Numbered from the stretch's first letter, positions 17,193-49,569 are shown. The stretch is 64,000 nucleotides of DNA from Polaribacter sp. Hel_I_88 (GCF_000687935.1 NZ_JHZZ01000001.1:3854001-3918000); one strand, 5' to 3'. Made by a program: numbers and translations. The notes: a model not told the origin generated them from the sequence alone.

Positions 17193-19550
17193 TTAATTGT
17201 ATTTCATTTTTTCATCTTTATCCCAAATACCCCATCTTGCTCCTAATTCTCCTTCTATTTTAACTTTCCAAGATTCATCAAAAGAAGAGAAATGAAACAT
17301 CGTAATATTTTCATTTTGAGCCCATTCTTGGGTTTGAATAAAGTATTTCATAGCATTTAGCTTTGTAGGATCTGCTTTTTGAACTGCTTCACCTTGACTT
17401 GGCCAACCTGTTTCAGAAATAATAATTTCTTTACCTTTTGCTATTTTTTCTGTTATAGCGTATATCTGTCTTAATTGTAAGAGAGCATCTTCAATACTTG
17501 ATCCTTCCCAAAAAGGATAACAGTTTGCTAGTATAATATCTGAAGCATCTACTAGATTAGGTCTTTTGGAGTATTCATAATAGGTGTCTACATAACAAAC
17601 AGGAATGTTTAAACCTTCTAATTCCTTTTTAACCCTGTTGATGTATTCTATAATTTCTGCTTCAGATACATCTCCTCTTAGTAAAACTTCGTTACCAACA
17701 GCTGCAATATCTACAGCACCTAATTTTGCTAAACGAATTAAGCCTTCTATTTCTTTTTCGTTCCTATTTTTATCTTTTCCAATCCAAGCACCTACAATGG
17801 TTTTTAGTCCTTTTTGTTTTGCAATTTGAGGAATCAACTCGTTACCATTTGTACAAGAAAAAGAACGAATAGAAGTTGTATACGGTTTAATAATATCCAT
17901 TCTTCTACTAATTTGAAGCTCACTCAAAACATCATTAGCATCTTGCCCTTCTGTATAAGGACTAAAGCACAAACCTTTTAAACCATTATGTAAAGTTTTA
18001 GAAAATAAGTTTGCAATTCCTTTTTCTGATAGGTTCGAAAAATCAATACTTTTATAGTCACTTAAAGGGATGTCTAAACCTAATGCCGCTAAATTTCCTG
18101 CTCCATAACCTGATGATGTTTTAGGAGCATTTTTAAGAATTTTTCTTTTTACTAATTCTGCGCTAATTTCTAAAGATCGTTCTTCTGTTAAGTTATACCC
18201 TCTCATAATCAACATGGCTCCAAGAGTTCCCAAAATTGGCAAGCCTGAATAGAATAAACGAATACCTGTAATTGAAGCTTCAGAATTTACGGTATCTGGC
18301 ACAAAACCAACTAAAGTCATAATTGCACCTGTCAACAAACCAGCAATTGCAAAACCAAATTTAACCATCCACCAATAAATTGCTCCGAAAACTCCTTCTC
18401 TTCGTTTTCCTGTGTTTAATTCATCAATATCAATTACATCAGAAGTCATTGACATCATTAAGGTAAATAAACTCCCAATACCAAAAGAGAAAAAAGGCAA
18501 TGCAAACAAAAATAAATAAGGTTTTCCTGGAACAAATAAAAACCAAAGCATTATATATCCTAGTACAGAAATTCCTTGAGAAATCATAAAAGCTTTCTTT
18601 TTACCAACGGTTCCTGATAATTTTGCTACGATAGGTATTACTAAAAAAGTAGTTGATAATGCACCAATACTTCCTAATAATGTTGGCCAAAGACCAGCTG
18701 CACCAGCATCTCCATTAAAAAGATAATAAACAACTATAAAAAATGAAAAACCGGCAACTACGTTAAAAGCATTGTAGATTAAAAATGTTGAGAAACACAA
18801 TTTTCTAAATTGTTCAATTTTAAAAGCTTCTTTAAAATTTTCTATGATTTCTTTTAAGCTTCCTCCTATTGTTTTTAATGTTAAAGGCGTTAGAGTATCA
18901 TCATCTATAGTCGATTTACTTTTAATAAAAAAAGCTGGTATCATTGCACAAACAGCAAAAATAACACCCACCCAAATCCCTAAAGTTCTAGTTGTTTCTG
19001 TGGTATCTCCAAACCAAGAATCATCATACATAACCACCCAAAACCAAGGTGCAATAACCCAAGCCCACTGACCAATCCATTGTGCAGTTGCCATAATATT
19101 TGTTCGTTCATGAAAATCATCACTCATTTCATAACCCATGGCAACATAAGGAACAGAAAAAATAGTTAATCCTAAATAAAAAACTAAAGACCAGATTAAA
19201 AAATAGGTGAAATTATAACTCACACCATCTACCACATACAATTGCCATAGTAATGAAAATGAAATACCCATTATTAAAGCTCCTAGTAAAACATATTGTC
19301 TTCTTCTACCCCAAATAGATCTTGTATTATCGGATATAAAACCCATGATTGGATCTGTAATTGAATCGAAAATACGAGGAAGAAAAAATAAAATTCCCCA
19401 CATCCAAGTTGGGAACTCGTAATTTTGAATTAAAACAACCATAAAAATTCCCAAAGCAGCTGGAAACATTTGATTTGCCAACATTCCTAATCCAAAAGCA
19501 ATTTTTTGTCCCATAGGCACTTTACCTGATTTCGTTTGATTGTTACTCAT
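17193..19550 (-). CDS. MFS (GPH-type) sugar transporter fused to a GH17 domain
   Basis: The 785-residue protein joins a 12-helix transporter (about 1-470) to a GH17 domain (about 505-785). The transporter resembles glycoside-pentoside-hexuronide symporters, with LPRIFDSITDPIMGFISDNT after helix 2 and a charged GRRRQYV loop. With twelve helices both ends face the cytoplasm, so the GH17 domain would meet oligosaccharides as they enter. Catalytic residues are E621 (AAVGNEVLL) and E713 (ISETGWPSQ). The fusion is continuous, with no frameshift or stop at the junction. Neighbours are GH30 upstream (24 bases) and a stand-alone GH17 downstream. Import coupled to hydrolysis is inferred from the topology. 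Confidence 0.9.
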   Translation of the reverse strand: MSNNQTKSGKVPMGQKIAFGLGMLANQMFPAALGIFMVVLIQNYEFPTWMWGILFFLPRIFDSITDPIMGFISDNTRSIWGRRRQYVLLGALIMGISFSLLWQLYVVDGVSYNFTYFLIWSLVFYLGLTIFSVPYVAMGYEMSDDFHERTNIMATAQWIGQWAWVIAPWFWVVMYDDSWFGDTTETTRTLGIWVGVIFAVCAMIPAFFIKSKSTIDDDTLTPLTLKTIGGSLKEIIENFKEAFKIEQFRKLCFSTFLIYNAFNVVAGFSFFIVVYYLFNGDAGAAGLWPTLLGSIGALSTTFLVIPIVAKLSGTVGKKKAFMISQGISVLGYIMLWFLFVPGKPYLFLFALPFFSFGIGSLFTLMMSMTSDVIDIDELNTGKRREGVFGAIYWWMVKFGFAIAGLLTGAIMTLVGFVPDTVNSEASITGIRLFYSGLPILGTLGAMLIMRGYNLTEERSLEISAELVKRKILKNAPKTSSGYGAGNLAALGLDIPLSDYKSIDFSNLSEKGIANLFSKTLHNGLKGLCFSPYTEGQDANDVLSELQISRRMDIIKPYTTSIRSFSCTNGNELIPQIAKQKGLKTIVGAWIGKDKNRNEKEIEGLIRLAKLGAVDIAAVGNEVLLRGDVSEAEIIEYINRVKKELEGLNIPVCYVDTYYEYSKRPNLVDASDIILANCYPFWEGSSIEDALLQLRQIYAITEKIAKGKEIIISETGWPSQGEAVQKADPTKLNAMKYFIQTQEWAQNENITMFHFSSFDESWKVKIEGELGARWGIWDKDEKMKYN

Positions 19551-19574: not shown

Positions 19575-21068
19575 TTAGTTTTTAATTACAAGAGTCTGAA
19601 TTGCTTGTCCTTGAATTGGTATTGTTACATGTTTATCCTTTAAAGATAAATTGATATTTTTAGAAGTTTTTCCTTCATTAAATACAACAACTGCAATGGT
19701 TCCATCTTGGTTTTCTGCTGCAGTTACCATCAAATCATTATCAGAGTTTTCTAGGTTGATAATTGATGCTTCTGGTCTTATAAATCTACTAAAGTGCGAT
19801 AATGTATAATAAATTGGTGTAAAATAAACCTCGTCATTTTCTTCATCAACAATAATTGGAGCCACACACCAGTTTTTAAACCAATTTGGTCCTCCTTGTT
19901 TGTTTAAAACCATATTCCAATCTATCCAACCATCTACATAATTGTTTAAACAACCAATAATATCTCTTGCATATCTGTTTACAGGTGCATATTTTGGGTG
20001 TAAATGTTTGTCTTTTTCTGGAGCCCAATCCCAACCCCAATCTGTTGCTTCTTTTTTCCAATACCATGCATCATCTTTCCATTTTGGAATTTCTGAATCC
20101 ACACAAGCTTCTGACTGAATTAAGTGTTTATTAGGTGCTTTGTTATGCGCATATTGCAATTCCTCTGGAAAAATTTCATACGTACTTGCATACCAATGAA
20201 TAGCTGTTCCATCAAAATATTTTGATGTTTCCTCATTTTTATATTGAGAATCTATCCATTCTTTTAAATGTTCTCTATTTTGATCATAACCTAAAATTTT
20301 TGCTTCTGGATGTGTTTTTTCTAATTGTGGCCCCAAATGGTTTTGCACAAAATTTGTCATTTCATCTGGTGTATAATGCATGGATTCCCAGTTATTTCCA
20401 TTTCCAAGAGGTTCGTTTTCTACTGTAAAACCCCAAATATCAATTCCTTCATTTTTATATGCTTCTGCATATTTCGAGAAAAATAACGCCCAAGTATCAT
20501 AATATTCAGGTAATAATTTACCTCCAACCCATTCTTTGTTATCTTTCATCCAAGGAGAAGCTGTCCAAGGAGAAGACAAAATTTTAAAACCATCTTTAGA
20601 TACTTTCATAGCATCTTTTATAAACGGAATTATATCGTCTTTATCTTCTTTAATTGAAAAATGTTCTAATTCTTTATCATCTTCAATTGGCGCATACGAA
20701 TACTGACTTAATGAAAAATCAGAAGAATTCATGTGAGTTCTTGTTAAAGAGTATTTTGCGCCACTTTCACCAAAATAAGCTTCAATAATGGAGTCTCTAT
20801 TTTTTTTGCTAATTTTGTTTAACAAATACGCAGAAGATTCTGTAAACGAACCTCCAAAACCTGTTATGGTTTGTCTTTTTTCTGCAGGTAATAATGTTAT
20901 TTGAACTAACCCATCTTGATTTTTATCCGAAGAAAAATTAGTTACCTTGGTTAAATTATTTCCACTTGCAGAAGTTTCGTAGACATCTACTTTTAAAGTA
21001 TTGTTTTTTGTGTTACAACTCATAATAATTACGAATAAACTAAAAACTAAAAATTTAATTGTTCTCAT
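19575..21068 (-). CDS. GH30 lipoprotein, likely exo-beta-1,6-glucanase
   Basis: The 497-residue lipoprotein (signal ends at C18, VIIMSC) carries a complete GH30 catalytic barrel and beta-sandwich. Visible motifs are GFGGSFTESSA near the N-terminus, the acid/base in TVENEP (E219) and the nucleophile in IQSEACVD (E320). Related GH30 enzymes in marine laminarin loci remove beta-1,6-linked glucose side chains, as shown for Formosa by published work I recall. The family also includes glucosylceramidases, so the linkage is inferred from context. Lipid anchoring and the neighbouring GH3 and GH17 suggest work in the periplasm or at the outer membrane. It lies 52 bases after the GH17-like lipoprotein gene. 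Confidence 0.92.
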   Translation of the reverse strand: MRTIKFLVFSLFVIIMSCNTKNNTLKVDVYETSASGNNLTKVTNFSSDKNQDGLVQITLLPAEKRQTITGFGGSFTESSAYLLNKISKKNRDSIIEAYFGESGAKYSLTRTHMNSSDFSLSQYSYAPIEDDKELEHFSIKEDKDDIIPFIKDAMKVSKDGFKILSSPWTASPWMKDNKEWVGGKLLPEYYDTWALFFSKYAEAYKNEGIDIWGFTVENEPLGNGNNWESMHYTPDEMTNFVQNHLGPQLEKTHPEAKILGYDQNREHLKEWIDSQYKNEETSKYFDGTAIHWYASTYEIFPEELQYAHNKAPNKHLIQSEACVDSEIPKWKDDAWYWKKEATDWGWDWAPEKDKHLHPKYAPVNRYARDIIGCLNNYVDGWIDWNMVLNKQGGPNWFKNWCVAPIIVDEENDEVYFTPIYYTLSHFSRFIRPEASIINLENSDNDLMVTAAENQDGTIAVVVFNEGKTSKNINLSLKDKHVTIPIQGQAIQTLVIKN

Positions 21069-21120: not shown

Positions 21121-22407
21121 TTATCTTGGGTATTCTGTATTTGGTACTAAAACTGTTTTCATTAAAGCATCTTTATCTCCTTTAAAAGTTTTGGTAATGG
21201 ATTTACCTCCTCTTTTTAAACCTTTAAAAGTTCCATTATCAACCAAATCCCAAAGTGGATATTTTGCTTCGCCTTTTAAAGTGAATAATCCAAAGTGATT
21301 TTCTGAACCTTCTGGATTTCCTGCATCTTTCCATTGTTCGTCAAAAGCTTCAAAATAGAAACAGGAAATACCTGATTCTTTTGTCCATTCTCTTAAATGT
21401 TTATAATACAAACCTTGCTTATATTCGTCACTTGCTCTCGAGCCTGGTTCTCCATATTGTCCATCAGAAATAGATGCCCAACCAGTTTCACCAATATGAA
21501 TTGTTTTGGTTGAATCGATACTTTTTACATAATTAGACACATTTTTATATTGTGTTTTTGCAAAATTCAAAGAGCGAATCATGGCAAAATCTATTTTTTC
21601 TTGGTCAGATAATCCTTGTTCATGAGCTGGAACTCCCCAAAATTCTGAATTATAATGTGTGTTATGATACGCATACGTGTGCATAGAAACATAATCTACA
21701 GCTTTAATTAAATCTTCTAAATCTTTAACTCTATAACTTGGGTCTCCTCCACCCCAAGAAGCAAAATCATCTGAACTTGTAATCCATAAGTCTTTAGACA
21801 ACTTGCCTTCTTTTTTAAGATTTTGCAAATGATTTACCCATTTTAAAATTACATTTGGACGCACAAAATAACTTTCTGCCCAACGAATCATGGCTTCGTT
21901 TCCTACAGCAATTACCTTTACAATGTCTGGATATTTGTTTGCCAAAGCAACTGCTCTTTCTATTTCTCCTTTATTTTGTGGGCTTTCAATATCGTGATTT
22001 GGAGCTTTGTTGGTCCAAGCATTTAAACAATCTATCCAAGCACCCAGCATTACGTACATTTCAAAAGTTTCGTCTTCTTTCTTTAATTGGTGAATGGCTT
22101 CTAAAACATTTTTTGCATGAGGTAATTTTGGTTGTACATTATAAGTTCTAATAATTCTGATACCCATGGCATGCATCAATTTTAAATCTTCTTTTAATTG
22201 AGCAATCGTAGGTTGTGCTTCTCTTGATTTTTCTCTGTAACCTCCATAAGAAATTGCTACATATTCTGGATTCCCAAGAATATCTTTTGCTGTTAATGCT
22301 TTCTTCATTATTGTCTTTTCTGCTGTTTTATTTTCTTTATTTGAGTTACATCCAACGCAAATTATCAATACTAAAAGAATTACTATATTTTTTATTGTTG
22401 ATGTCAT
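21121..22407 (-). CDS. GH17-like lipoprotein glycosidase
   Basis: The start is taken at 22407, giving MTSTIKNIVILLVLIICVGC, a lipoprotein signal with C20. An upstream frame extension to 22461 would overlap the GH3 gene and bury the signal. The 428-residue protein has a GH17-like TIM barrel with acid/base E171 (VIAVGNEAM) and nucleophile E307 (IHIGETGWAS). It is clearly divergent from the two cytoplasmic GH17 domains in this locus, with a longer insert (TYAYHNTHYNSEFWG). Related proteins in laminarin loci are annotated as GH17 or as GH-A clan glycosidases. Probably it is a periplasmic beta-1,3-glucan or laminaribiose-releasing enzyme. The product is unknown. Confidence 0.85.
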   Translation of the reverse strand: MTSTIKNIVILLVLIICVGCNSNKENKTAEKTIMKKALTAKDILGNPEYVAISYGGYREKSREAQPTIAQLKEDLKLMHAMGIRIIRTYNVQPKLPHAKNVLEAIHQLKKEDETFEMYVMLGAWIDCLNAWTNKAPNHDIESPQNKGEIERAVALANKYPDIVKVIAVGNEAMIRWAESYFVRPNVILKWVNHLQNLKKEGKLSKDLWITSSDDFASWGGGDPSYRVKDLEDLIKAVDYVSMHTYAYHNTHYNSEFWGVPAHEQGLSDQEKIDFAMIRSLNFAKTQYKNVSNYVKSIDSTKTIHIGETGWASISDGQYGEPGSRASDEYKQGLYYKHLREWTKESGISCFYFEAFDEQWKDAGNPEGSENHFGLFTLKGEAKYPLWDLVDNGTFKGLKRGGKSITKTFKGDKDALMKTVLVPNTEYPR

Positions 22408-22429
22408 TTTGCGAATGTTTTTAATATTT

Positions 22430-24241
22430 TTATATTTTTTTATATGATAAACCAAATCCAAAAGGAAATAATGGTTTTATTGAATTATCCCAAAAATTAG
22501 GGCCATATTTTCCTTTATAATCTTCCACTGATGTTGGCCAAGAATGTGGTAATTTTCCTTTAAAATTATAATCGCCAAAAAGTACTTCTGCTACTCCATC
22601 TCCTTCTGAACCTACTAACCAAGCTGCTACAAAAGCATCTGATTTTTCGATTTGATCTGTTACCACCAAAGGTCTTCCTGAAACTAAAATTACAATCGTT
22701 TTTACGCCTTTTTCTTGGTATGTTTTTATGTATTGTTGATGTGCTGTTGTCAGCATTAATTCCAGTTGATTCGATTCGTGACCAATATCTCCAAAAAATT
22801 CTGCATACGGATTTTCGCCAACTACAATAATGGCTACATCTGCATCAAATTGTTTTTTTGTTGCGTCTTTATCATACACAACTTCGCCTTTTGCCTGTTT
22901 TTTAATTCCGTCTAAAATAGTAGTTGCTCCTTTGTAATTTCCTTTAGTTCCTTGCCAATGAATCGTCCAACCACCAGATTGTAAACCAGCTGAATTTGCG
23001 TGTTCACCAACCACAACAATCTTTTTTGTTTCTTTTGATAAAGGCAAAATTTGTGCATCATTCTTTAACAAAACTAAAGATTCTCTCACTGCTTGTTTCG
23101 CAATTTCCCTGTGTTTTTTCGAGCCAATTTCTTTGATCAAACTTGCATCTGGAAAAGGATTTTCAAACAAACCCAATCTAAATTTCTGACGTAAAATTCG
23201 TCTTACAGCATCATCAATTCTGGCTAATTTTACAGATGCATCTTCAACTCCCGCTTTTAAACCTTTTTGAAAACTATCTAAATCGCCATCAACAGCCATT
23301 ACAACATCTATTCCTGCATTTACAACCTCATTTCCATTGAAACGTGAATAGGCTTTCCAGTCAGAAACAACAATTCCATCGAAATTCATTCCAACCTTTA
23401 ACGTATCCGTTATTAATGCTTTGTGATTATGCATTGAAGTACCTGTAATTGAGTTGAATGAAGACATGACTGCTCCAACATTTTCTTTTACAGCAACTTT
23501 ATAAGGAGCTAATAGTCGTTCTTGTATTTCTTTGGCTGATAAAGAAGTTTCTCCTCCTTCAACTCCAAAATCTGTGGAACCATCACCCACAAAATGTTTG
23601 GCAGTTGCCATGACTGTTTTTGAGTCTGATAAATTTCCTTGATGCCCTTTTATAGAAGCTTTAGTTAACTTTTCTGTTAATGCTGTGCTTTCTGAAAACG
23701 CTTCATAAACACGTCCCCATTTTTCATTATAAGGAATGGCTATACAAGGTGAAAACACCCAATTAAAACCTGTTGCTGCACTTTCTAACGCCGTAATTTT
23801 TGCGATTTCTTCAACCAAATCTGCATTTTGAGTTGCACCCAAACCAATATTATGAGGAAAAATTGTTGCACCTTCAAAAGTATTTTGTCCATGAACAGCA
23901 TCCACAGCAAATAATAAAGGAATGCCCAATCTTGAACTTAAAGCTTTCTTTTGTAATGCTGTAAACCTTTTTTGCCAATCTAAAGCCGTTTTTCCTGGAG
24001 TTGGCCCTTCTGTATGAATAATTGAACCTATAAATTTTTCAGAAACATGAACATCAGCATTTTCTTCAAAATGCCTAATCTGAGACATTTGTCCGATTTT
24101 CTCTTCTAAAGTCATTAACTTTAGAAGAGAATCTATCTTTTGTTCTATTTGAGTTTCTTTACTTGTGTTCATTTTGGTTTTACAGGAAAAAATCAACAAT
24201 AAAAAACAACCAATTACAAATTTGAAATCGCTGTTTTTCAT
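22430..24241 (-). CDS. GH3 beta-glucosidase lipoprotein
   Basis: The 603-residue protein starts at the ATG at 24241, preceded by a TTG that is less likely. The lipoprotein signal ends at C20 (LLLIFSC). GH3 motifs are HTEGPTPG, the GKxxMATAKHFVGDG segment and the nucleophile D294 in GIVVSDWKAY. The C-terminal domain has KNDAQILPL and the end of the family pattern, FPFGFGLSY. It lacks the fibronectin-like third domain of longer BglX types. It probably removes terminal glucose from beta-1,3 or beta-1,6 laminari-oligosaccharides in the periplasm. It follows the GH149 gene by 5 bases. Confidence 0.93.
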   Translation of the reverse strand: MKNSDFKFVIGCFLLLIFSCKTKMNTSKETQIEQKIDSLLKLMTLEEKIGQMSQIRHFEENADVHVSEKFIGSIIHTEGPTPGKTALDWQKRFTALQKKALSSRLGIPLLFAVDAVHGQNTFEGATIFPHNIGLGATQNADLVEEIAKITALESAATGFNWVFSPCIAIPYNEKWGRVYEAFSESTALTEKLTKASIKGHQGNLSDSKTVMATAKHFVGDGSTDFGVEGGETSLSAKEIQERLLAPYKVAVKENVGAVMSSFNSITGTSMHNHKALITDTLKVGMNFDGIVVSDWKAYSRFNGNEVVNAGIDVVMAVDGDLDSFQKGLKAGVEDASVKLARIDDAVRRILRQKFRLGLFENPFPDASLIKEIGSKKHREIAKQAVRESLVLLKNDAQILPLSKETKKIVVVGEHANSAGLQSGGWTIHWQGTKGNYKGATTILDGIKKQAKGEVVYDKDATKKQFDADVAIIVVGENPYAEFFGDIGHESNQLELMLTTAHQQYIKTYQEKGVKTIVILVSGRPLVVTDQIEKSDAFVAAWLVGSEGDGVAEVLFGDYNFKGKLPHSWPTSVEDYKGKYGPNFWDNSIKPLFPFGFGLSYKKI

Positions 24242-24246
24242 CAATC

Positions 24247-27200
24247 TTATTTTATAATTGAAACTTTTATATGCTTTATTTTGTCAGTTCTATCAAATAA
24301 TAATGAACTAGTTGTTTTGTCTAATTCTAACGTATCTAAACTTTTTGTTGAGCCATCGTTAAAAACAATCGCTACATTTTCAGTTTCTGATAACTTATAA
24401 ATTACTGGAACTTGACAGTATGTAAAACACAATTGATTTTTATCGATATTCAATGTTTGTTTATCACCTGAAACAGTTACATATTCAAATACTTGTGCTT
24501 TTTCTAAAAACTCCGATTTTTTTAATAAACGAGGTTTAAAAATAACTTTACTATTTTTTACAAAAACACCTAGTTCACCAAATCTACACACCAAATCTTC
24601 TTTCACTTGACCTGTCATTCCTGGTTGTTGTGCTCCTTTTCCTGCTGGTGTGTGAGAATACGCATCTGTTGGAAAAGCTCCATATAATTTTGGAGATTTA
24701 TGAACGCCAACTCCTGCATTTATTTCGTAATAATGATCAAATAATCGACCAATAATTTCGTCGCTTTCGTTTGTATTTACTGCTAACAAGCAATTCTCTT
24801 GAACTGCCACTAGTAATTTAGAAACCATGTGCCAATAAATAGACCCTAAACCTTCATACCCAAAGAAAGTTCCTGAACGACCTGTAAAAGATTTATGGTC
24901 AAAAATATCTTCGAAAATTGCTAACACTTTTTTGGTGTCTTTTTCAACCAACAATTTATAATCATCAGAAAGATTTTGTAATGCTTTTTTAACGCTTTCT
25001 GCATTGTTAAAGTTTCCATTAAAATGATAATTTCCTAAAACATCTTTTTCTACTAATTGTTTGTTGTTATCTGCAACTAACTTTTGTAATAATTCAGAAC
25101 TTTCAACTTGCTCAGAAGCAATGTTATTTTTATCTGTAAATCTTGGTAAGTTTTTATTCGGATATAAAATATAACTGTATTGATCTGGTCTAAACAAAGC
25201 TGAGGCTTTTAAACCATCTAGTAAAGCTAACGCTTGTTTTGGCGTTAAATAACCAGAACTTAATGCAGAAACTTGCCCTTCTAACATTTCTGATAAATAA
25301 GAAATAGAAACTTCATCCTTATTTTCAATCGTCATTAAATTATACGCATGATACATATTATCCGAACGTTTATTCGCTCTAATACTATGTTCTAAATAAT
25401 TTTTAGTGATGGCAAAAAAGTGTAATAAGGCCGTTTTAGAAACTGCTGATTTTTTTGTTGAAAATCCGTTTTTATAGATAAATTCTCTATACTCACTTGC
25501 AGGTTTCCCTAAACCATCTAAAACTCTTTTGCGTTCGTTATTGGTAACATTTCTTGATAAAATAGTTGCATTGGCATCCAATGTTTTTAAAATATCGTTG
25601 AATAAAGAAGCAACTTCATCAGAAATTTCGATGTTATTTACCTCCGCATTTTCTACAACACCTTCAAAGAAATTGATGAATCTTCGCAAATAATATAAGG
25701 TTACCATAGAAACGCCATTCCCAACCAAAGCGTTGTTGGCGTCATTCCATTCTGGTCTTTGTGTGTTTAACCAAATTCCTCCTTCTGGAATAAAGTTAGA
25801 TACTTTTGCTAAAACAGTTACAAGTAATTTTTCAATTAAATTTACTTTATAAGGCTTGTTATTTTTATCTCTTAACAAAGAACCATCAGCACCAATTTTT
25901 GCTCTTCTTTCTTCGATTTTTGCTTGTAATTGATGATCAAAATCAATCGTGTCTTTTGAGTTTTTTAAAATATCCTCATAACTTTTTATTTTATAAGGCA
26001 CGTTTGCGTATACAAAAATATCATCATTAAATAACTCAGCTAATTTAGCTGGATAATGTTTTTCGATAAACTCTAAAAACTTTAATAAATAGATAATTTG
26101 ATGATCTCCCCAATAACCAATATAACTCCAAGGATCATGTTCTTCAATTACTTCCCAATCAAAACCATCTTTGGTAACTCTGTAAGGATTGTAGCCTTCA
26201 AAAGTAGTTGCGTTTAAGAATTTATGAATCATACTCTCAATAAATTGAGGATATGAATGCGCTAAAACTTCCCAATTCTGAAAAATATCTCTCCAGTTTC
26301 CTTCGTAATCTAAAATTTTAGAACCGTCAATTTCACTTTTTGTGTTGATAGAAAACTTGTTCCAAGGTCTACTTGGATCTCCATGTCTTCTACTAAATTT
26401 TAAGGGTAAATATTCTAAACACAAACGTTTAAAATCTTTATTAGCATCCTTATCTGCTAACTCTTTGATAAAATCTAACGTAAATTCTTTGGGTAAGTTT
26501 TGTAATAACTCTTTTTTATCTGCAAATAATTGTTTGTTTGCTTTTGACAAATAGGTTACAAAATCATCTTTTTCAATGGTATAATTGTCATCAAAAATAC
26601 CACCTCTCATAATATTAAAAAGTGTATTTGAAAAATGTCTTGTGTTGATTAATTTATCATTCGATAATTGTAAACCATCAGAAGACGCTACCAATTCAAT
26701 TAGTTTTTCGGTTCCAATTTCGATACTTTTATTCAGCTTTTCTTCTAAATTATCGTTGTTTTTTATCATTTCTGATAAACGTGCAACATCAGAAACTGTT
26801 TGATTTACGTTGGCAATTTGTAACCAAGATTTTTCTTTTTGAGCAGCTAAATGTATATCTGCATTTAAAAGATAAGCTCCTTTTTCTGCCTTTACATCTA
26901 CTTCCTGTTCTAAATCTATTCCTCTTCTAAAATTATTAATTTGGGTAGAAGACAATAAATAAATTGGATTTTCCAAACCTAAAGACCAGACTAAATTGGC
27001 TTTTAAAGCTTCACTTGGCTCAGCTTTATCAACAATAATAGCACTTAACGCATAAATACCTAAACCTGAATCTTCTTCTAATTCACATTTTTTATAAGCA
27101 TCTACCAAATTACTACGAATTCCTTGAATGTCTGAACCCACTCCATAAGGCAACAAATCTTGAAAACCATCTAACAGAGAAATTTCTAAATTTTCATCAG

Positions 27201-27684
27201 CATTATTTATTAATGTTGCTTTTCTAACAAAACCAAACTCATCACTTGAATTCCATTCATATGTAAAAGTGATGTTTAAATCTTCATTTACTTCTTCAAA
27301 AATAATTTTGTTTCCGTAAATGTTTTTGTATAAATTTCTTTTGATGTTGTAAATCCCTGCTTGTCTTTCAGAAAATGGTTCCCATAAATGGGTTTTATCA
27401 TCTTTGGTAATTCTAAAGATGGACTTACAACCTGTAGTTTCTGCTAATGCTGTAATTTTATCATCTGTATAATAAGGAAAAAGTGAATATTCTGCGTTTT
27501 TTCTACCAGCAGTTAAACCTCCATTACTAGAGATAAACATCCAATGATTGGAATCAGATACAATCGTCATAAAAAAAGGACGCATTGTGTGGCTGTTTGA
27601 TATCTTGTAAAAAGATTCGTTATTTAGGGTTACTAATTCTCCTTTAACCTCTACAGTTGGGTTCTTTGCAATATTGTTACTCAT
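24247..27684 (-). CDS. GH149 beta-1,3-oligoglucan phosphorylase
   Basis: The 1145-residue protein has no signal peptide. It matches in size and pattern the GH149 phosphorylases described from Euglena and bacteria, distant relatives of GH94. The N-terminal beta-sandwich (about 1-300: HTMRPFFMT...NGGLTAGRKNAEYSLFPYYTDD) precedes the alpha/alpha barrel. Key stretches are RHGDPSRPWNKFSINTK (434-449), GYNPYRVTKDGFDWE (497-511) and RPEWNDANNALVG (643-655). The last corresponds to the WND catalytic-acid region of GH94 (D648 here). The reaction is phosphorolysis of beta-1,3-oligoglucan to alpha-glucose 1-phosphate. Cytoplasmic location fits uptake by the neighbouring MFS fusion. A small CATACC/GGTATG hairpin at 27703-27718 lies just before the start codon. 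Confidence 0.88.
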   Translation of the reverse strand: MSNNIAKNPTVEVKGELVTLNNESFYKISNSHTMRPFFMTIVSDSNHWMFISSNGGLTAGRKNAEYSLFPYYTDDKITALAETTGCKSIFRITKDDKTHLWEPFSERQAGIYNIKRNLYKNIYGNKIIFEEVNEDLNITFTYEWNSSDEFGFVRKATLINNADENLEISLLDGFQDLLPYGVGSDIQGIRSNLVDAYKKCELEEDSGLGIYALSAIIVDKAEPSEALKANLVWSLGLENPIYLLSSTQINNFRRGIDLEQEVDVKAEKGAYLLNADIHLAAQKEKSWLQIANVNQTVSDVARLSEMIKNNDNLEEKLNKSIEIGTEKLIELVASSDGLQLSNDKLINTRHFSNTLFNIMRGGIFDDNYTIEKDDFVTYLSKANKQLFADKKELLQNLPKEFTLDFIKELADKDANKDFKRLCLEYLPLKFSRRHGDPSRPWNKFSINTKSEIDGSKILDYEGNWRDIFQNWEVLAHSYPQFIESMIHKFLNATTFEGYNPYRVTKDGFDWEVIEEHDPWSYIGYWGDHQIIYLLKFLEFIEKHYPAKLAELFNDDIFVYANVPYKIKSYEDILKNSKDTIDFDHQLQAKIEERRAKIGADGSLLRDKNNKPYKVNLIEKLLVTVLAKVSNFIPEGGIWLNTQRPEWNDANNALVGNGVSMVTLYYLRRFINFFEGVVENAEVNNIEISDEVASLFNDILKTLDANATILSRNVTNNERKRVLDGLGKPASEYREFIYKNGFSTKKSAVSKTALLHFFAITKNYLEHSIRANKRSDNMYHAYNLMTIENKDEVSISYLSEMLEGQVSALSSGYLTPKQALALLDGLKASALFRPDQYSYILYPNKNLPRFTDKNNIASEQVESSELLQKLVADNNKQLVEKDVLGNYHFNGNFNNAESVKKALQNLSDDYKLLVEKDTKKVLAIFEDIFDHKSFTGRSGTFFGYEGLGSIYWHMVSKLLVAVQENCLLAVNTNESDEIIGRLFDHYYEINAGVGVHKSPKLYGAFPTDAYSHTPAGKGAQQPGMTGQVKEDLVCRFGELGVFVKNSKVIFKPRLLKKSEFLEKAQVFEYVTVSGDKQTLNIDKNQLCFTYCQVPVIYKLSETENVAIVFNDGSTKSLDTLELDKTTSSLLFDRTDKIKHIKVSIIK

Positions 27685-28691: not shown

Positions 28692-29543
28692 TTAATTATA
28701 AACTCTAACATAATCTACTAACATTCTTTGAGGAAAAATGGTGTTTTCATTTGGTGAACCTGGCAAATTACCACCAACAGCCACGTTTAAAATAATATGA
28801 AAAGGTCTATTAAAAACCCATTCTCCAGAACCATTTGTTTCTTCAGAAACATCAGCAGGTGTTAAGGATTGATATAAATCTCCATCTACATACCAGTTGA
28901 TTGAATTTGGACTCCATTCCACTCCAAAAATATGAAAGCCATTATCAAATCTATCATTTGCAATTTCATACTGTTTGGTGATAGAATTTGCTCCAGAAAA
29001 TCCTGGTCCATGTATAGTTCCAAAAACAGTGGTAGGTTCATCACCAAGATATTCCATAATATCAATTTCACCAATTTGAGGCCAAACTAAGGATCCATTT
29101 TCATCATCACCTAAAAGCCAAAATGCTGGAAAAATACCTTTTCCTGTTGGAAGCTTTATTCTAGCCTCAAAACGTCCATATTTTTGATCTAACTTTCCTT
29201 TTGTAGTAATTCTTGCAGATGTGTACGATTTTCCTTCAAAATTTTCTTGTTGTGCTGTGATAATTAAAACACCATTTTGTACAGTAACATTTTCTGTTCT
29301 AGCTGTATAATTTTGTAGTTCGTTGTTTCCCCAACCTGGAATTCCTTGTGCAGTTCCATCGCCTGTTAAAAGGTTCCAATTTGCAGCATCTGGAGATCCA
29401 TCTGTATCAAATTCGTCTTGCCAAACCAAGTTATTTAGTGTTGCTACAGTTTGCGTTTCATCTGTATCGCAACTTGTAAAACCTAGTACACTAAAACAAC
29501 ATAAAGTTAATAGTTGTAATTTTCTTTTATATATATTTTTCAT
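28692..29543 (-). CDS. GH16 laminarinase (endo-beta-1,3-glucanase) lipoprotein
   Basis: This 283-residue enzyme is a lipoprotein (C25, GFTSC) with a single GH16 jelly-roll. The catalytic motif is GEIDIMEYLG, with nucleophile E159 and acid/base E164. W153-E159 (WPQIGEIDIME) is typical of subfamily 3 laminarinases. The conserved IFPAFWLLG and HIFGVEWSP strands are intact. Endo-cleavage of beta-1,3-glucan at the cell surface would provide oligosaccharides for the SusC/SusD pair. It is translated between a binding lipoprotein (19 bases upstream) and the PKD lipoprotein. No appended binding domain is present, so binding functions are supplied by neighbours. Confidence 0.94.
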   Translation of the reverse strand: MKNIYKRKLQLLTLCCFSVLGFTSCDTDETQTVATLNNLVWQDEFDTDGSPDAANWNLLTGDGTAQGIPGWGNNELQNYTARTENVTVQNGVLIITAQQENFEGKSYTSARITTKGKLDQKYGRFEARIKLPTGKGIFPAFWLLGDDENGSLVWPQIGEIDIMEYLGDEPTTVFGTIHGPGFSGANSITKQYEIANDRFDNGFHIFGVEWSPNSINWYVDGDLYQSLTPADVSEETNGSGEWVFNRPFHIILNVAVGGNLPGSPNENTIFPQRMLVDYVRVYN

Positions 29544-29562: not shown

Positions 29563-31053
29563 TTAATTTGTATAAAAATACACGTTATCTACCCAAATAT
29601 TAGATACTGTATTGTCTGATATAAAAAACAATTGTCCTAAGTTAGTTCTGCTATTAAAACCAGGAAAACTTGATAAAGGAATATCTAAACTAATCCAACC
29701 ATTAGCATCTGCATTTCTTAAAGCAGTTGCATTTAAGGTAAAAGTTCCTCCAGAAGTAGTTCCTGAACCTGTACCACTTTCTAATTGAATTCTTATAAAA
29801 TCACCATTATCGATATTTTCTCTTACATTAATATCGATATGCAACTTATTGGTTGCACTTACATCTATATTCGAAACAGTTTCATACATCCCTATACTTA
29901 CAAAATTTAAAGAAGTATAATTGATAATATTATCTAAATCTCCATTGGCAAAAGGTGCTTTAATATCTACATTATTTGGATCAGATCCTGCACCACCTTC
30001 TGTAGTTTGAAAAGGAGCAAAAAAACCATTATAATGCCTTACAGGAACATTTGAATAAGCATCACTAAAAATAGATACCACATTATTTGTTGCTGCAGGA
30101 ATTGGTGCGTGAGGAAAATCTCCTTGACCGTTTATAATTAAAGCTCCTGTTGCCATAACATTGGCAACTTCTGCAGTAACTTTTGCTGTTCCTTCTCCTG
30201 TTATGGGTGTTATGATTTCTCCAGCTTCATTTAATCTAAAATTACCTGTTACACTTGAATTATCCGTTTTAAAATCAAAATAATTTGGTGAAATTGTAAT
30301 TGTTTGTGAGTTACCTGTTGGTAAACTATAAATAGCGCCTAAACCTGTAACTCTTTGATTAACTCCTGTAAAAACATTTACGTTAACTTCGTTGCCATTT
30401 TGAATAAAGTAATTCTGTAATTTTAAGGTTCCTAATTTTTCGAATTTAATTTCATCTATCCAAATCGTAAAACCTACACCATCTGTACTTGCTGTACCTG
30501 CAGAAAAAACGAACATACCTCGTTCTTGAGTTAATCTGCTTGCATCAGGAATTGGGATAATTACTTTTCTCCAATCTGTTGATAATTGTTTGTTTGCGAT
30601 GCTAACTGGAAATTGATCTTCTAAAAAATCAGTTCCAAAACCTAATAAATCTACATTTGCTGTTGTGGAACCTTTCATCCAAAAGGTTAAAGCATCGTAA
30701 CCAGATAAATCTCTACCTGCTCCTCGATCTCTAAAAATTCCACCAATAAATCCGCCATTTGGATCGTTAGGTGCTGGCACATCAATTCTTATAGAACTTG
30801 TTCCTTCGTAGGCAACATTATCATCGGTTCCAAAACCTTCAGTATTTGCGCCTCCAGCAGGATCAAAAGAGATAAAAAATTCATCTGTTAGACCTGCAGG
30901 AGCATCTGTAAAAACATTCGGATTTGTTTGAAATGTTGCTAAAACTGCTTCATCAGAAATTTCTCTTTCACAATTTGAAAATAGCAAAAGAAATAATCCC
31001 AATAAGAGTGTTGTTTTTAAGTACGTAAATTTTATTTTTTTCATTGTTTTCAT
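29563..31053 (-). CDS. Surface glycan-binding lipoprotein, paralogue 1
   Basis: The 496-residue lipoprotein carries the cysteine in LLLFSNCEREISDEAV. Three parts are visible. An N-terminal carbohydrate-binding-like sandwich (about 45-210) has YEGTSSIRIDVP and GRDLSGYDALTFWMK and ends in WIDEIKFEKLG. A middle Ig-like domain (about 220-320, TISPNYFDF...KVTAEVA) follows. A C-terminal module (about 325-496) starts with NNVVSIFSDAYSNV and ends in NIWVDNVYFYTN. It is a clear paralogue of the next upstream gene. No catalytic residues are seen. It probably binds laminarin at the surface, judged by context. Confidence 0.83.
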   Translation of the reverse strand: MKTMKKIKFTYLKTTLLLGLFLLLFSNCEREISDEAVLATFQTNPNVFTDAPAGLTDEFFISFDPAGGANTEGFGTDDNVAYEGTSSIRIDVPAPNDPNGGFIGGIFRDRGAGRDLSGYDALTFWMKGSTTANVDLLGFGTDFLEDQFPVSIANKQLSTDWRKVIIPIPDASRLTQERGMFVFSAGTASTDGVGFTIWIDEIKFEKLGTLKLQNYFIQNGNEVNVNVFTGVNQRVTGLGAIYSLPTGNSQTITISPNYFDFKTDNSSVTGNFRLNEAGEIITPITGEGTAKVTAEVANVMATGALIINGQGDFPHAPIPAATNNVVSIFSDAYSNVPVRHYNGFFAPFQTTEGGAGSDPNNVDIKAPFANGDLDNIINYTSLNFVSIGMYETVSNIDVSATNKLHIDINVRENIDNGDFIRIQLESGTGSGTTSGGTFTLNATALRNADANGWISLDIPLSSFPGFNSRTNLGQLFFISDNTVSNIWVDNVYFYTN

Positions 31054-31087: not shown

Positions 31088-32491
31088 TTATTTGTAAAAA
31101 TATATGTTATCTAAATAAACATTTCTCAAGGATGAAAAATTAATATTTTCATAGATAATTTGTCCCATATTATTTTTGTTTGCTAAAGTTAAAGGAAACT
31201 CAATAGTAATCCACTCATTAGCAACTATTTTAGATGACTTTCTTACAAATAATTGCTCTCTAGTATCATCTCCTCCACCATCTTTTTGATCAGGTCCAAA
31301 ATCTACCACCGTTATTAAAAAATCGAAATTAGCAGGAACCTGCCCTGGAATGTACATATTTAAATGTAAATTAGACTTTACTGAAACATCTTGAGTAGGA
31401 TTTGAAAACCTATTTCCTACAAAATTGAAGTTTGTATAATTTAAAATTTGATCTCCATTTATATTAAAATCCGCAGATAATGTTGTTTGAAAAGGTTGCC
31501 AATATCCGTTGTAAAAATCAATATTTACATTCTCATAATGATCACTAAAAATTGAAATAACATCTTCTGGATTTCTAGTTGGAGTTGGTGCTAATACAAA
31601 AGCTCCACTAGATTTAATTTCTAAAGAACCTGCAGCATCTAAAGTTCCAAGTTTTGCAGTTATGATTGACGTTCCATCAGAAATTACATTTACCAAACCA
31701 TTTGCATCGATAGTTGCAACACTTGGGTTTGAGGATGAAAAATCGAAATAATTTGGCGATACAGATACAGTTTGATTGTTACCAGATGCTAAATTAAATG
31801 TTTGCGTTAAGCCTGCCACTTGAACATTAACTCCTATATAGGAATCCGTTATAATATTTTGTCCATTTTGAATTGCTGGTCTTGGCTGTGCAATTGTTCC
31901 TAATTTTTCAAATTTTAATTCATCAATCCAAAAAGAATAGCCATCACCATTTTCTGGACCTTCTGAAAACCACATCAATCCGCTTTCTTTCGTAAGTTTG
32001 GATGCTGTAGGAATAGGAATACTATATTTTACCCAATTTGTAGTTAATCTTAAACCATTAATATTGACTTGATATTTATTTTCGCCAAAATCTTGACCGA
32101 AACCAATTTCATTGATGGTTGCTGCTTTTGTAGATTTTGCCCAAAAAGTAAGTGCATCATAGCTCGATAAATCTCTTCCTCCATTATCATCTCTAAAAAT
32201 TGCACCTGCATAAGCACCTTCAGGATCTCCTTCATTTGGCACATCAAAACGCATAGAAGCTGTTCCTTGATATTTTGTTTCTGTATCTACACTAAAAGCA
32301 CTGAATTTAGAATCTAAATAAGGATAATAATCTAACCCTGCACTAAAACCATCGATAAAAACCTCTGGATTGGAAGAAAAAGTTGCTATTACAGCTTCAT
32401 CAGAAATTTCTCTCTCGCAACTTGTTATCATTAAAAATAATACAACAAAAAGAAAAGTAACTTTAGAAGTTAAATATTTTATAGTTTTCAT
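31088..32491 (-). CDS. Surface glycan-binding lipoprotein, paralogue 2
   Basis: The 467-residue lipoprotein (MITSCEREISDEAV) has the same layout as the protein encoded 34 bases downstream. An N-terminal sandwich has YQGTASMRFDVP and GGRDLSSYDALTFWAK and ends in WIDELKFEKLG. An Ig-like domain (SVSPNYFDFSS) follows. The C-terminal module begins EDVISIFSDHYENV and ends in NVYLDNIYFYK. The shared CEREISDEAV segment shows that the two arose by duplication. The C-terminal modules have diverged more, which could give different glucan preferences. No catalytic motif is visible. It follows the glycosidase-barrel fusion by 11 bases. Confidence 0.83.
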   Translation of the reverse strand: MKTIKYLTSKVTFLFVVLFLMITSCEREISDEAVIATFSSNPEVFIDGFSAGLDYYPYLDSKFSAFSVDTETKYQGTASMRFDVPNEGDPEGAYAGAIFRDDNGGRDLSSYDALTFWAKSTKAATINEIGFGQDFGENKYQVNINGLRLTTNWVKYSIPIPTASKLTKESGLMWFSEGPENGDGYSFWIDELKFEKLGTIAQPRPAIQNGQNIITDSYIGVNVQVAGLTQTFNLASGNNQTVSVSPNYFDFSSSNPSVATIDANGLVNVISDGTSIITAKLGTLDAAGSLEIKSSGAFVLAPTPTRNPEDVISIFSDHYENVNIDFYNGYWQPFQTTLSADFNINGDQILNYTNFNFVGNRFSNPTQDVSVKSNLHLNMYIPGQVPANFDFLITVVDFGPDQKDGGGDDTREQLFVRKSSKIVANEWITIEFPLTLANKNNMGQIIYENINFSSLRNVYLDNIYFYK

Positions 32492-32502
32492 CTTTTATGG
32501 CG

Positions 32503-35500
32503 TTATTTTCCAATATTAATGTGGATATAAGTTCTAATTTCCCATTCTGAACCATTTGGAAAACCTACTGGACTTAAGATTGGAGCAGTTGCAAACTCTC
32601 CAGCAGTTTCGTTAGGAGAATATCTTGGTGAAAACTCATTTAACGATCTCCAAGTTCCTCTTAAACCAACCTTCGTATCTGGTAAAATAAACCAACTTGG
32701 TTTTCCTATGGATGTTGAAACATCTAACATTAATTGTAAAGGATATGTTAAGTTAAAATCTCTATGGTAATCAAAAGGTCCCCAGTCGTTCACTTTAACC
32801 ATTCCAGTTATTTTCATTTTATTTAAGATCATTCTTAAATCGGCTCCACCTCTGTAAATAAGTCTTTCACTATCTCCATTTGCTTGCCCTGTTCCATAGT
32901 ACAAATTAGCAATTAAGCCTAAATCTGGATGCACTTTAGACACAATTCTTGAATGTACTTCCCATAAATCTTGTGCTGGTGCAGATTGCTCGAATGGAAA
33001 GAAAGTACGATCTGCTAAGAAACCAATGGCTGCATCTTGTGTTGTTGGTAAACTTCTATATACAAATCCTAAATTCATGGCAAATTTTGCATCTTCTACC
33101 ATATCATTATTAAATTCATACATATAGGTTGCTGGTGTAGGATCGAACGTAAAAAGGATTTCTCCTGCTGTCATTTCTCTATTTCCACCTCTTACAGCAA
33201 AAGGATCATCGATAACATTTCTTAATCTTCCTGGTGCATCACCTCCATTTGGCATGGCAGCAACTAATGGTTTTTGATATAAAAAGTTTGGAGCAATTTG
33301 AAATTTACCACCAAAATTATAAGCAATTCCACTTAAAAAATTTGTCATGTTTCCACTTCCAGAATCTTTTAATTTCCATCCTGTAAAAACTAAAGTTGGG
33401 TCTCCTCCTCCATTTGCAACTAACCCCATTACAGAACCTTGTGCATAAAAGTTAAAACCACCATCAGAAAAAGTTAATTTTGCTTTTCCTCCCCAATTAT
33501 CTTTCGATTGAATTTTATCGTTTACAACTTGTCCGTTTTCATTTATATCTTGATATCTCCTACCATTTAAAGGACTACCACCCCACATTGCACCAAGTGT
33601 AATACCGACTTTACTTATTTTTCTTTCGATAGCAAAAGTTGCTCTTTCAGTTGGCAATGGAGGAATAACCCCAGATCTTGATTGCTCTGGATCTAAAATT
33701 CTACTTCCTGTTGCATCAATTCCACTTCCTTGTACAATATCTTTATGATAAATTGCTGATAAACCATAATTACCAACTTGTTTTTGATATTTTAAAAACA
33801 CTGCTGGGTTTGCTCCCCAAAAAAGTTGTGGTCCAAATGCAGCTTTTAATCCTTCTAAAGCGCCTTTACCATCGACTTCTACACCTAAAATTTCTCCATT
33901 ATAAATATCTAAATTTGGCCCATAATACGCTTCTGGATACAAGTTAAAGAAATCACCTTCATAACTCCAATGATAATGCCCAGTTCTATAAAAACCTCTC
34001 ATATCAAAATCTTTGGCATTCCATTCAAATTCTGCATTATACACTCTTAAGCGATTATTATCTGTAATAGTTGTAACACCATTTGGAGTTTCTACTTGAA
34101 TTGGTCTTCCTACGTTTTCGTAAAAAATATCATCAATTGGGTTTCCTGCAACGTTTCCTAAAATGTTAAAATTAACTTCGGCTTTCATATTTGCAGAAGG
34201 TTGCCCTTTTACACCCACATAATACGATTGCATGTGATCAAACCCACGTCTATCTGGAATAGTTTGTCCTGTTCCGTCTGAAAATTTTGGCGTTGTTAAA
34301 AGAGTACCTCCAGTATTAAAAGTTGTAAATTCTGCTCTTAAGTTACTTATTTGAATTTTTTCTGTACTTCCCATTGATGCTTTATCTCCTCTAGCTCTTA
34401 AAACAGCATCCATTAAGTTGATGTTTTGAAAATGATTTTCAACGGTTATAGGTGTACTTTCGAATACATTCAGTTCATGTGCCTCTTTTAAAGCGTAATA
34501 TGCTGCTCTTGGGTACAAAGTGTATAGACCTCTAATATCTGTTTGTCCTTTTGCAGCAATTCCAAACCATTCCTCATTCATATTTTTGTCATTTGGAGCT
34601 GCTTGATCTCTGCTATATCCATTACTTGCCCAAGATGCTCTTGTATCGTGTACATCTGCATTTTCACGATCATCAAAACCAGCTTTGAACCATCCATCAC
34701 TAGATTGGAATGTAAAACCACCAATAGAGTTTTCCGCTTTTCCTAAACCATAAGCATTTTCATATATTTCTCTCCAATTATTAACCATATAATAGGCTTG
34801 CATTAATTGATCTTCTTTATTGTCTTTTGCATTAAAGGCATCAGAACCAAACTCAGTAAATAAAATTGGCTTGTTAAATTCTTTATCAATTCTAGAAAAC
34901 GCATCAGAAAACGATACTCCTCTATACATATTGGTTCCATAAATGTCTATATTTTTACATTCATCAGCAACAATATCTAAATATAATAAATCTCCATTAC
35001 AAATACCAATTGGATGCGATGTATCTACTTTTTTCATTGCTAATGCAGCATCATTAAAAGTTTTATACATGGCTCTTGCCTCATTTCGTTTTGCAACATC
35101 ATCATCATTAATAATAATACCTTCATCTGTTTCAGAACCTTCCCAAGTTAAATGGTAATTGTTTTCATTACCCAACATAAAAAGTAACAAACCAGGTGTA
35201 TCTTTATATAAATTTAACATGCCTACTGCTTCATCAATAAGATGTTTACGAACCTTTGGATCTGAATACAGTGTTTTTGGATTATATACACCATCTATAG
35301 TAGTTCCATATGCACCAAATTGATGATTGATCATTGTATAGATTCCAAAATTCTCATAGATATACGTAATCCATTTTGGAGGCATACCAATATATGTTCT
35401 AATGGCATTTACACCCATATTTTGCCATAAAGGCATTTCTTCATCTAAACCAGCTTTGATAATATCGTCTGATTTTTCCCAGAATTTTGCATCTAAGACA

Positions 35501-35670
35501 TTGTAGCCAATTGGCACATAATCCCAGTTAATTCCATTTACCATAAATGGTTTTCCGTCAACGGTTAGCATCATTCCTTTAGCATCATTTACAATAGATA
35601 CTTTTTGGGATTGAGAATACATACTAAAAGTGAATAAGAAAAGTAACAATCTTAAAAAAATGTTCTTCAT
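32503..35670 (-). CDS. GH-A clan glycosidase fused to an outer-membrane beta-barrel
   Basis: The 1055-residue protein has a signal peptide (1-19) and a TIM-barrel glycosidase-like domain (about 22-420). That domain contains MLTVDGKPFMVNGINW, GVNAIRTYIG, an acid/base motif LGNEN (E169) and a nucleophile motif LFTEFGSDAF (E273). This pattern fits clan GH-A (GH2, GH5 or GH72-like), and I cannot fix the family. From about 470 to the end the protein is strand-rich, with alternating polar and aromatic residues (YYVGVKG, AEVNFNI, VYNAEFEWN, NFYAQGSVMG, YRGGADLRMIL, YIHINIGK). It reads like a large outer-membrane barrel. The gene leads the second transcript of the locus and has its own long upstream region with a candidate operator. 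Confidence 0.78.
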   Translation of the reverse strand: MKNIFLRLLLFLFTFSMYSQSQKVSIVNDAKGMMLTVDGKPFMVNGINWDYVPIGYNVLDAKFWEKSDDIIKAGLDEEMPLWQNMGVNAIRTYIGMPPKWITYIYENFGIYTMINHQFGAYGTTIDGVYNPKTLYSDPKVRKHLIDEAVGMLNLYKDTPGLLLFMLGNENNYHLTWEGSETDEGIIINDDDVAKRNEARAMYKTFNDAALAMKKVDTSHPIGICNGDLLYLDIVADECKNIDIYGTNMYRGVSFSDAFSRIDKEFNKPILFTEFGSDAFNAKDNKEDQLMQAYYMVNNWREIYENAYGLGKAENSIGGFTFQSSDGWFKAGFDDRENADVHDTRASWASNGYSRDQAAPNDKNMNEEWFGIAAKGQTDIRGLYTLYPRAAYYALKEAHELNVFESTPITVENHFQNINLMDAVLRARGDKASMGSTEKIQISNLRAEFTTFNTGGTLLTTPKFSDGTGQTIPDRRGFDHMQSYYVGVKGQPSANMKAEVNFNILGNVAGNPIDDIFYENVGRPIQVETPNGVTTITDNNRLRVYNAEFEWNAKDFDMRGFYRTGHYHWSYEGDFFNLYPEAYYGPNLDIYNGEILGVEVDGKGALEGLKAAFGPQLFWGANPAVFLKYQKQVGNYGLSAIYHKDIVQGSGIDATGSRILDPEQSRSGVIPPLPTERATFAIERKISKVGITLGAMWGGSPLNGRRYQDINENGQVVNDKIQSKDNWGGKAKLTFSDGGFNFYAQGSVMGLVANGGGDPTLVFTGWKLKDSGSGNMTNFLSGIAYNFGGKFQIAPNFLYQKPLVAAMPNGGDAPGRLRNVIDDPFAVRGGNREMTAGEILFTFDPTPATYMYEFNNDMVEDAKFAMNLGFVYRSLPTTQDAAIGFLADRTFFPFEQSAPAQDLWEVHSRIVSKVHPDLGLIANLYYGTGQANGDSERLIYRGGADLRMILNKMKITGMVKVNDWGPFDYHRDFNLTYPLQLMLDVSTSIGKPSWFILPDTKVGLRGTWRSLNEFSPRYSPNETAGEFATAPILSPVGFPNGSEWEIRTYIHINIGK

Positions 35671-36402: not shown

Positions 36403-36442
36403 ATAAAAAAACCAATAAAGGCAAAAAGTCTTTATTGGTTTT
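36403..36442 (-). terminator. Terminator of the SusCD transcript
   Basis: AAAACCAATAAAG pairs exactly with CTTTATTGGTTTT around a 9-base loop, 31 bases beyond the stop of the last SGBP gene. On the minus strand a T-run follows. It divides the locus into two transcripts. Confidence 0.85.
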
Positions 36443-47362: not shown

Positions 47363-47456
47363 TATTGTTTTATACTTTTCCGGATTCGTAGGAATATGTG
47401 TAGTTATTTGGGCATATTTTATGATACGCGCCTTTGATAAAGCCAGTAAAGGCTAA
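47349..47456 (+). CDS. 35-residue single-helix membrane peptide
   Basis: The frame starts inside the previous gene (14-base overlap) and reads MSANDIVLYFSGFVGICVVIWAYFMIRAFDKASKG. It has one hydrophobic helix with a positively charged end, as in small subunits such as CcoQ/CcoS. That likeness is only in shape. The stop overlaps the 3' end of the GH97 gene on the other strand by 3 bases. The overlap with its neighbour and the clean hydrophobic profile support a real coupled gene, but the short length keeps confidence moderate. Confidence 0.5.
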   Translation: MSANDIVLYFSGFVGICVVIWAYFMIRAFDKASKG

Positions 47457-49567: not shown

Positions 49568-49569
49568 AA

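Follow-up and report, generated by a model that had tools for sequence, protein, structure and literature searches.

A glycosidase fused to an outer-membrane beta-barrel in the laminarin locus of Polaribacter sp. Hel_I_88, a candidate TonB-independent glucan porin

Laminarin, a major store of carbon in the sea, is thought to be imported by Bacteroidota via SusC/SusD. In these importers an outer-membrane barrel is encoded directly beside the gene of a surface lipoprotein within a polysaccharide utilization locus (PUL). Up to now, an atypical, SusC/D-independent cellulose PUL has been described in Cytophaga hutchinsonii (CHU_1276-1280), in which an endoglucanase accompanies an outer-membrane barrel and a lipoprotein that is SGBP-B-like and contains a CBM11-like domain (PMC12016534). 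A transporter-glycosidase fusion, FbGH17b, is known from a laminarin locus of Formosa (PMC6246565), and laminarin loci of a layout similar to that analysed here have been published from Formosa (PMC6246565) and Muricauda (PMC13188888). The gene at the corresponding position of the Muricauda locus is called a GH2 glycosidase, with no mention of a barrel (PMC13188888); judged from gene order, it is presumably the same gene as the fusion described below. No report of an outer-membrane barrel or porin fused to a glycosidase was found in the open-access literature.

The window, a stretch of 64,000 nucleotides of the Polaribacter sp. Hel_I_88 genome, contains such a fused gene, which resembles each of these systems in part. 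As with SusC/SusD, a barrel is encoded next to a surface glycan-binding lipoprotein (SGBP) in a PUL, and structure searches with the barrel list SusC chains among its neighbours; however, this barrel has no detected plug or Pfam match and carries its own glycosidase, and its partner is an SGBP of the CBM/Big_2 type. Unlike the C. hutchinsonii system, the locus concerns beta-1,3-glucan and not cellulose, and barrel and enzyme are joined where that system is described with separate genes, the two barrels being compared by description only. FbGH17b, of which the same gene type is found in the window, differs by its location in the inner membrane, its other transporter and its other enzyme family.

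The fused gene is present as a single copy in this genome and its ORF is intact, with the ATG at 35670 and the stop codon at 32503-32505, encoding 1055 amino acids. This confirms the fusion given in the original prediction and adds its orientation on the minus strand (Table 1). Fused homologues lack a lipobox, except for one pattern match within a signal peptide (locus L016), and a T9SS_sortase_N match (E=0.05) covers the signal peptide only. The linker spans from the last TIM helix, which is common to the enzyme-only homologues, to the first barrel strand. Upstream, the SusC/D/SGBP genes are followed by a terminator-like 15-bp hairpin with a T-run and then by about 740 bp of AT-rich DNA; as far as can be read from sequence, the fused gene thus appears to lead a second transcript of the locus, as had been proposed. 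A recurring gene order is observed, with the fused gene followed by the SGBP lipoprotein, GH16, GH149, GH17, GH30 and MFS(-GH17), and a SusC/D pair adjoins the fused gene in the window and in many Polaribacter loci. The gene run ends, on the minus strand, with a second GH17 gene (16221-17159) and a Por_Secre_tail type IX secretion protein (14247-15890). Past a regulator, GH97 and alpha-amylase genes (47453-51222, minus strand) form an alpha-glucan locus that abuts the laminarin locus.

Table 1. Features of the fused gene and its neighbourhood, in positions of the window
Feature	Position	Strand	Basis or match
Whole gene: signal peptide, GH-A TIM barrel and outer-membrane beta-barrel	32503..35670	(-)	homologues at full length ~53-82% identity
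Signal peptide, residues 1-20, MKNIFLRLLLFLFTFSMYSQ, without lipobox cysteine	35611..35670	(-)	sequence
GH-A TIM-barrel glycosidase domain, residues 22-427	34390..35607	(-)	Pfam, Foldseek, Z-scores
E169, predicted acid/base, NE motif after beta4	35164..35166	(-)	aligned with LGNE of GH158(Pro) and GH2
E273, predicted nucleophile, TEFG, beta7	34852..34854	(-)	aligned with TEFG of GH158(Pro)
Linker, residues 428-437	34360..34389	(-)	alignment with L024, L027; enzyme-only C-termini
Outer-membrane beta-barrel, residues 438-1055, ~22-24 strands	32506..34359	(-)	models, structural neighbours, strand polarity
Near-invariant long loop, residues 564-592, GHYHWSYEGDFFNLYPEAYYGPNLDIYNG, conservation 0.95	33895..33981	(-)	
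Near-invariant loop, residues 962-977, DWGPFDYHRDFNLTYP, conservation 0.95	32740..32787	(-)	
Terminator-like hairpin with T-run, between SusC/D/SGBP transcript and fused gene	36408..36442	(-)	sequence
Partner SGBP lipoprotein, CEREISDEAV after lipobox, Big_2, CBM11/CBM30-like N-part (profile level)	31088..32491	(-)	
Second, paralogous SGBP lipoprotein, CBM11-like (E=7.7e-5)	29563..31053	(-)	
GH16 laminarinase-like lipoprotein, acidic export-type N-terminus CDTDET	28692..29543	(-)	
GH149 beta-1,3-oligoglucan phosphorylase, no signal peptide seen	24247..27684	(-)	full-length match to 6hq6, E=0
GH3 lipoprotein, CKTKMN, without acidic export signal	22430..24244	(-)	
GH17 lipoprotein, CNSNKE, without acidic export signal	21121..22461	(-)	
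GH30 lipoprotein, CNTKNN, without acidic export signal	19575..21068	(-)	
MFS_2-GH17 fusion, 785 aa, inner-membrane transporter-enzyme	17193..19550	(-)	same type as FbGH17b, PMC6246565

In the full-length AlphaFold model (mean pLDDT 56.7, with the TIM part at about 80), E169 is located just past beta4 (161-166) and E273 on beta7 (269-274), and by this model the enzyme is placed in clan GH-A, where an Asn-Glu pair after beta4 and a Glu on beta7 are found. Both glutamates are invariant in all fused (62/62) and all enzyme-only (8/8) homologues, hence in 70 of 70, with N168 preceding E169; twelve further checked positions are invariant in the 62 fused proteins, and among the eight enzyme-only proteins one position differs once. 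The GH-A barrel with its LGNEN (E169) and FTEFG (E273) motifs, first noticed in the sequence, is therefore upheld by the dyad geometry of the model and by this invariance. Assignment to a family is a different matter. Foldseek gives GH158(Pro) as the top match of the TIM part (E=1e-11), and the family profile aligns LGNE169 and TEFG273 with the GH158(Pro) motifs and LGNE also with a GH2 enzyme. A GH158 profile match (9oro, E=6e-4) covers residues 134-276 only, a weak Pfam GH72 signal is seen in 6 of 22 family members (best E=1.2e-4), and the VIA-align Z-scores for GH5 (26.1), GH158 (25.8), GH2 (25.0) and GH157 (24.7) are nearly tied, so that the enzyme can be assigned to the clan but not to a family. 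With the GH158 endo-beta-1,3-glucanases BuGH158 and GH158(Pro) the enzyme shares the NE/E dyad and a beta-1,3-glucan context, but it is only about 20% identical to them and the solved GH158 members have no such barrel. In BuGH158 the residues with equivalent roles are N136-E137 and E220, and mutants in them are inactive (PMC7157763). From the gene context, the predicted substrate is beta-1,3-glucan oligosaccharides. Distant, barrel-less GH-A enzymes with the same NE/E dyad and 22-24% identity to the TIM domain (loci L093, L094, L147 and L148) are located near GH16, GH149 or GH17 genes.

The C-terminal half has the features of an outer-membrane beta-barrel, namely a signal peptide on the protein, amphipathic strands and connections that alternate between long (mostly 16-39 residues) and short (mostly 2-6), as seen in a low-confidence model. 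The alternation of strand polarity, which had been claimed for this strand-rich part, is borne out with a mean of 2.46 vs 1.41 +/- 0.21 in shuffled strands. Modelling the barrel alone brought no gain in confidence (mean pLDDT 52.6), and with both models this weak the number of strands can be given only approximately, as about 22-24. Soluble beta-sandwich domains, named beforehand as the outcome that would speak against a barrel, were absent from the Foldseek and VIA-align lists for this low-confidence barrel-only model, which contain transmembrane barrels only, among them the FimD usher (Z 13.7), LptD, OprD/Occ porins, BtuB, FepA, SusC and VDAC. At the sequence level no PDB relative of the barrel was found. 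The signs of a TonB-dependent transporter are lacking, with no Pfam Plug in the protein and no Pfam family matched by 26 barrel-only sequences even at E=10, whereas the SusC of the window does match Plug by Pfam. Among 42 representatives of <80% identity, the barrel is conserved (0.71) like the enzyme (0.73), and its two near-invariant loops are rich in aromatic and acidic residues.

The fusion is kept across many Bacteroidota families. A scan of contigs yielded 27 loci, mostly with full-length fusions, some clipped by contig ends and two enzyme-only. With the whole protein as query, matches were obtained in 20 of 395 genomes of the class, two of them weak, and with the barrel as query in 35 of 395 genomes of the phylum, the same 35 being recovered by a profile search. 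That profile search revealed no barrel outside the fusion in the 395 phylum genomes, barring contig-end or broken fragments. A frame-broken fused gene in a draft genome (L112, 1271-2197 and the following frame) may reflect assembly error or decay. Enzyme-only forms occupy three places on the best tree (three changes), of which at least two are forced by well-supported branches, and their grouping in a single clade is rejected (AU p=0.0007).

Of 59 fused loci, 58 have an SGBP lipoprotein gene as the next gene on the same strand, in most cases overlapping or no more than about 50 bases away; this is the arrangement of SusC/SusD, with a partner that is not SusD. In all eight enzyme-only loci the next gene is GH149. 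The sole fused locus without an adjoining SGBP (L106, 11253-13703) has a rearranged gene order, with a GH18 chitinase-like gene next. A direct comparison is provided by two loci of one genus, L084 (genome G245) and L092 (genome G063), where a 3.5-kb block with the barrel and the SGBP is present only in the former and the two are otherwise syntenic, sharing SusC-SusD-SGBP-GH16-TIM and GH149-GH17-GH30. Barrel and SGBP change together on the tree, with a link that is not significant there (sign test p=0.25) because there are at most three independent changes. The SGBPs mostly begin with a C-E-R-type N-terminus followed by acidic residues, which suggests a position at the cell surface, and contain Big_2 and, in some, CBM11/CBM30-like domains. 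Their strongest PDB matches, to teneurin-like proteins, were disregarded as they cover the Ig-like domain only.

In 41 of the 59 fused loci neither SusC nor SusD was recognised within the flank examined, mostly 8-9 kb. Using PF07980 (E<=1e-5) and PF14322 (E<=0.01), no SusD was detected in six genomes of 99-100% completeness (G390, G010, G433, G445, G504 and G601), a plain count with no enrichment claimed, and in G390, G010, G445 and G601 no SusC exceeded the TIGR04056 cut-off. The locus of G433, G445 and G601 consists only of the fused protein, the SGBP, GH16, an MFS transporter and a regulator, which we take by the look of its sequence to be ROK-like, and no other large barrel was recognised near the fused gene in these three. 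Because the SusD-less genomes do carry other TonB-dependent receptors elsewhere, the absence of SusC/D is suggestive and not proof. Three reduced loci of this gene content, from genomes in which SusD was undetected (L108, 3351-12657; L109, 8455-18707; L110, 7972-17468) would make good minimal systems.

These observations bear on whether the barrel is a mere membrane anchor in place of a lipid anchor, with SusC/D or another receptor performing the import. Such a role is unlikely, even if it would fit the enzyme-only homologues, which are lipoproteins so that the fusion exchanges one anchor for another, and the SusC/D pair next door in the window and in many Polaribacter loci. A barrel of 620 residues, conserved like the enzyme and bearing near-invariant long loops, is more than an anchor needs; moreover, barrel and SGBP come and go jointly, and the operon occurs in some genomes without detected SusC/D. 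The conservation, the loops and the gain and loss with the SGBP thus make a channel function likelier than that of an anchor. Of the original prediction that the glycosidase is anchored by its own barrel, the fusion and the missing lipid anchor, unlike in the neighbouring lipoprotein enzymes, stand, but the barrel probably does more than anchor the enzyme. The further suggestion of a new kind of glucan-processing pore in the laminarin locus is supported as a possibility by the barrel conservation, the near-invariant loops and the co-occurrence with the SGBP.

In known outer-membrane barrels, long connections are outside and the C-terminus is inside. With an even strand count of 22 or 24, the N-terminus would therefore be inside as well, and the fused enzyme probably resides on the periplasmic face of the barrel. 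As the preceding TIM helix ends the enzyme-only homologues, no more than about 10 residues remain for the linker, too few for the enzyme to have been threaded through the barrel. An acidic export signal has been defined for surface lipoproteins (PMC5080379). Acidic N-termini occur in the window on SusD (CSDDFV), SGBP3 (CQEDDY), PKD-CBM4 (CEEDLR), PKD (CNEDDN) and GH16, and non-acidic ones on GH30, GH17 and GH3. Seven of the eight enzyme-only homologues are lipoproteins, and their N-termini, CAKK, CAQQ, CAQH, CAPM, CTQH or CQAS, are non-acidic, which suggests that the fused enzyme belongs with the periplasmic set. On topology the first reading is thus amended, in favour of a probable periplasmic location of the enzyme over one at the cell surface. 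Display at the surface, with the TIM domain threaded through the barrel like an autotransporter passenger and acting outside, has a precedent in autotransporters, with their N-terminal passenger and C-terminal barrel, and such loci commonly hold surface enzymes; nevertheless it is improbable, as the linker could not cross the membrane and free the domain outside, the enzyme-only forms lack the surface-export signal, and autotransporter barrels are about half as large as this one. Assignment to the type Va autotransporters was likewise rejected, with about 620 residues and 22-24 strands vs about 12 strands.

Least weight is given to two further readings. That the protein is an ordinary periplasmic GH2-like beta-glycosidase of the laminarin PUL, whose C-terminal extension is of no interest, would agree with its top Pfam and NCBIfam matches, both to GH2, the only Pfam match being the GH2-type TIM domain PF02836 (residues 35-282, E=1.3e-6), and with the name of the Muricauda gene (PMC13188888); it is very improbable, since the C-terminal 620 residues look like a membrane barrel and the TIM domain starts at residue 22 right after the signal peptide, without the N-terminal jelly-roll/Ig-like sandwich domains of GH2 beta-galactosidases and beta-glucuronidases, for which reason GH2 membership was also rejected. 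An exporter in the outer membrane that works with a glycosidase of the periplasm, like the exopolysaccharide systems PgaA/PgaB and BcsC/BcsZ, would likewise pair such an enzyme with a barrel, and structural comparison of the model also lists PslG, among its weaker matches, but this is highly implausible given conserved neighbours of catabolism and import (GH16, GH149 phosphorylase, GH17, GH30 and an MFS sugar transporter), no synthase gene recognised among them, and a published Formosa locus of similar gene order that is laminarin-induced (PMC6246565, as compared in PMC13188888).

The reading that is held to be somewhat on the probable side is that of a TonB-independent outer-membrane porin for glucan which carries its own periplasmic glycosidase and functions in the manner of SusC/SusD, with import and activity suggested by gene context and architecture. 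The signal peptide would direct the protein to the periplasm, where its C-terminal half would insert as a barrel of 22-24 strands, with the conserved long loops facing outside and the short turns inside, and the GH-A domain would be tethered at the periplasmic mouth by the linker. The adjoining lipoprotein, with its CBM-like and Big_2 domains, may form a complex with the barrel and would bind beta-glucan at the cell surface above the pore, while the surface GH16 would cleave laminarin into fragments. The resulting oligosaccharides would cross the barrel with no energy input from TonB, as the lack of a detected plug domain suggests, and the fused enzyme would cut or trim them as they emerge, so that an inward gradient is kept. 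GH17, GH30, GH3, MFS-GH17 and the cytoplasmic GH149 would complete the breakdown, and in the window the system would operate alongside the SusC/SusD pair.

A wider form of this proposal is offered tentatively and may well not hold, namely that the protein is an enzyme-coupled TonB-independent importer in which uptake is driven in one direction by the protein's own periplasmic glycosidase, that the surface lipoprotein is the counterpart of SusD, and that the system can replace SusC/SusD for laminarin in some Bacteroidota. If true, these bacteria would have a second route of glucan uptake, with passage and cleavage united in one chain that annotation has filed as 'GH2'. Thus, a testable question is raised, whether catalysis at the pore exit can replace the energy of TonB.
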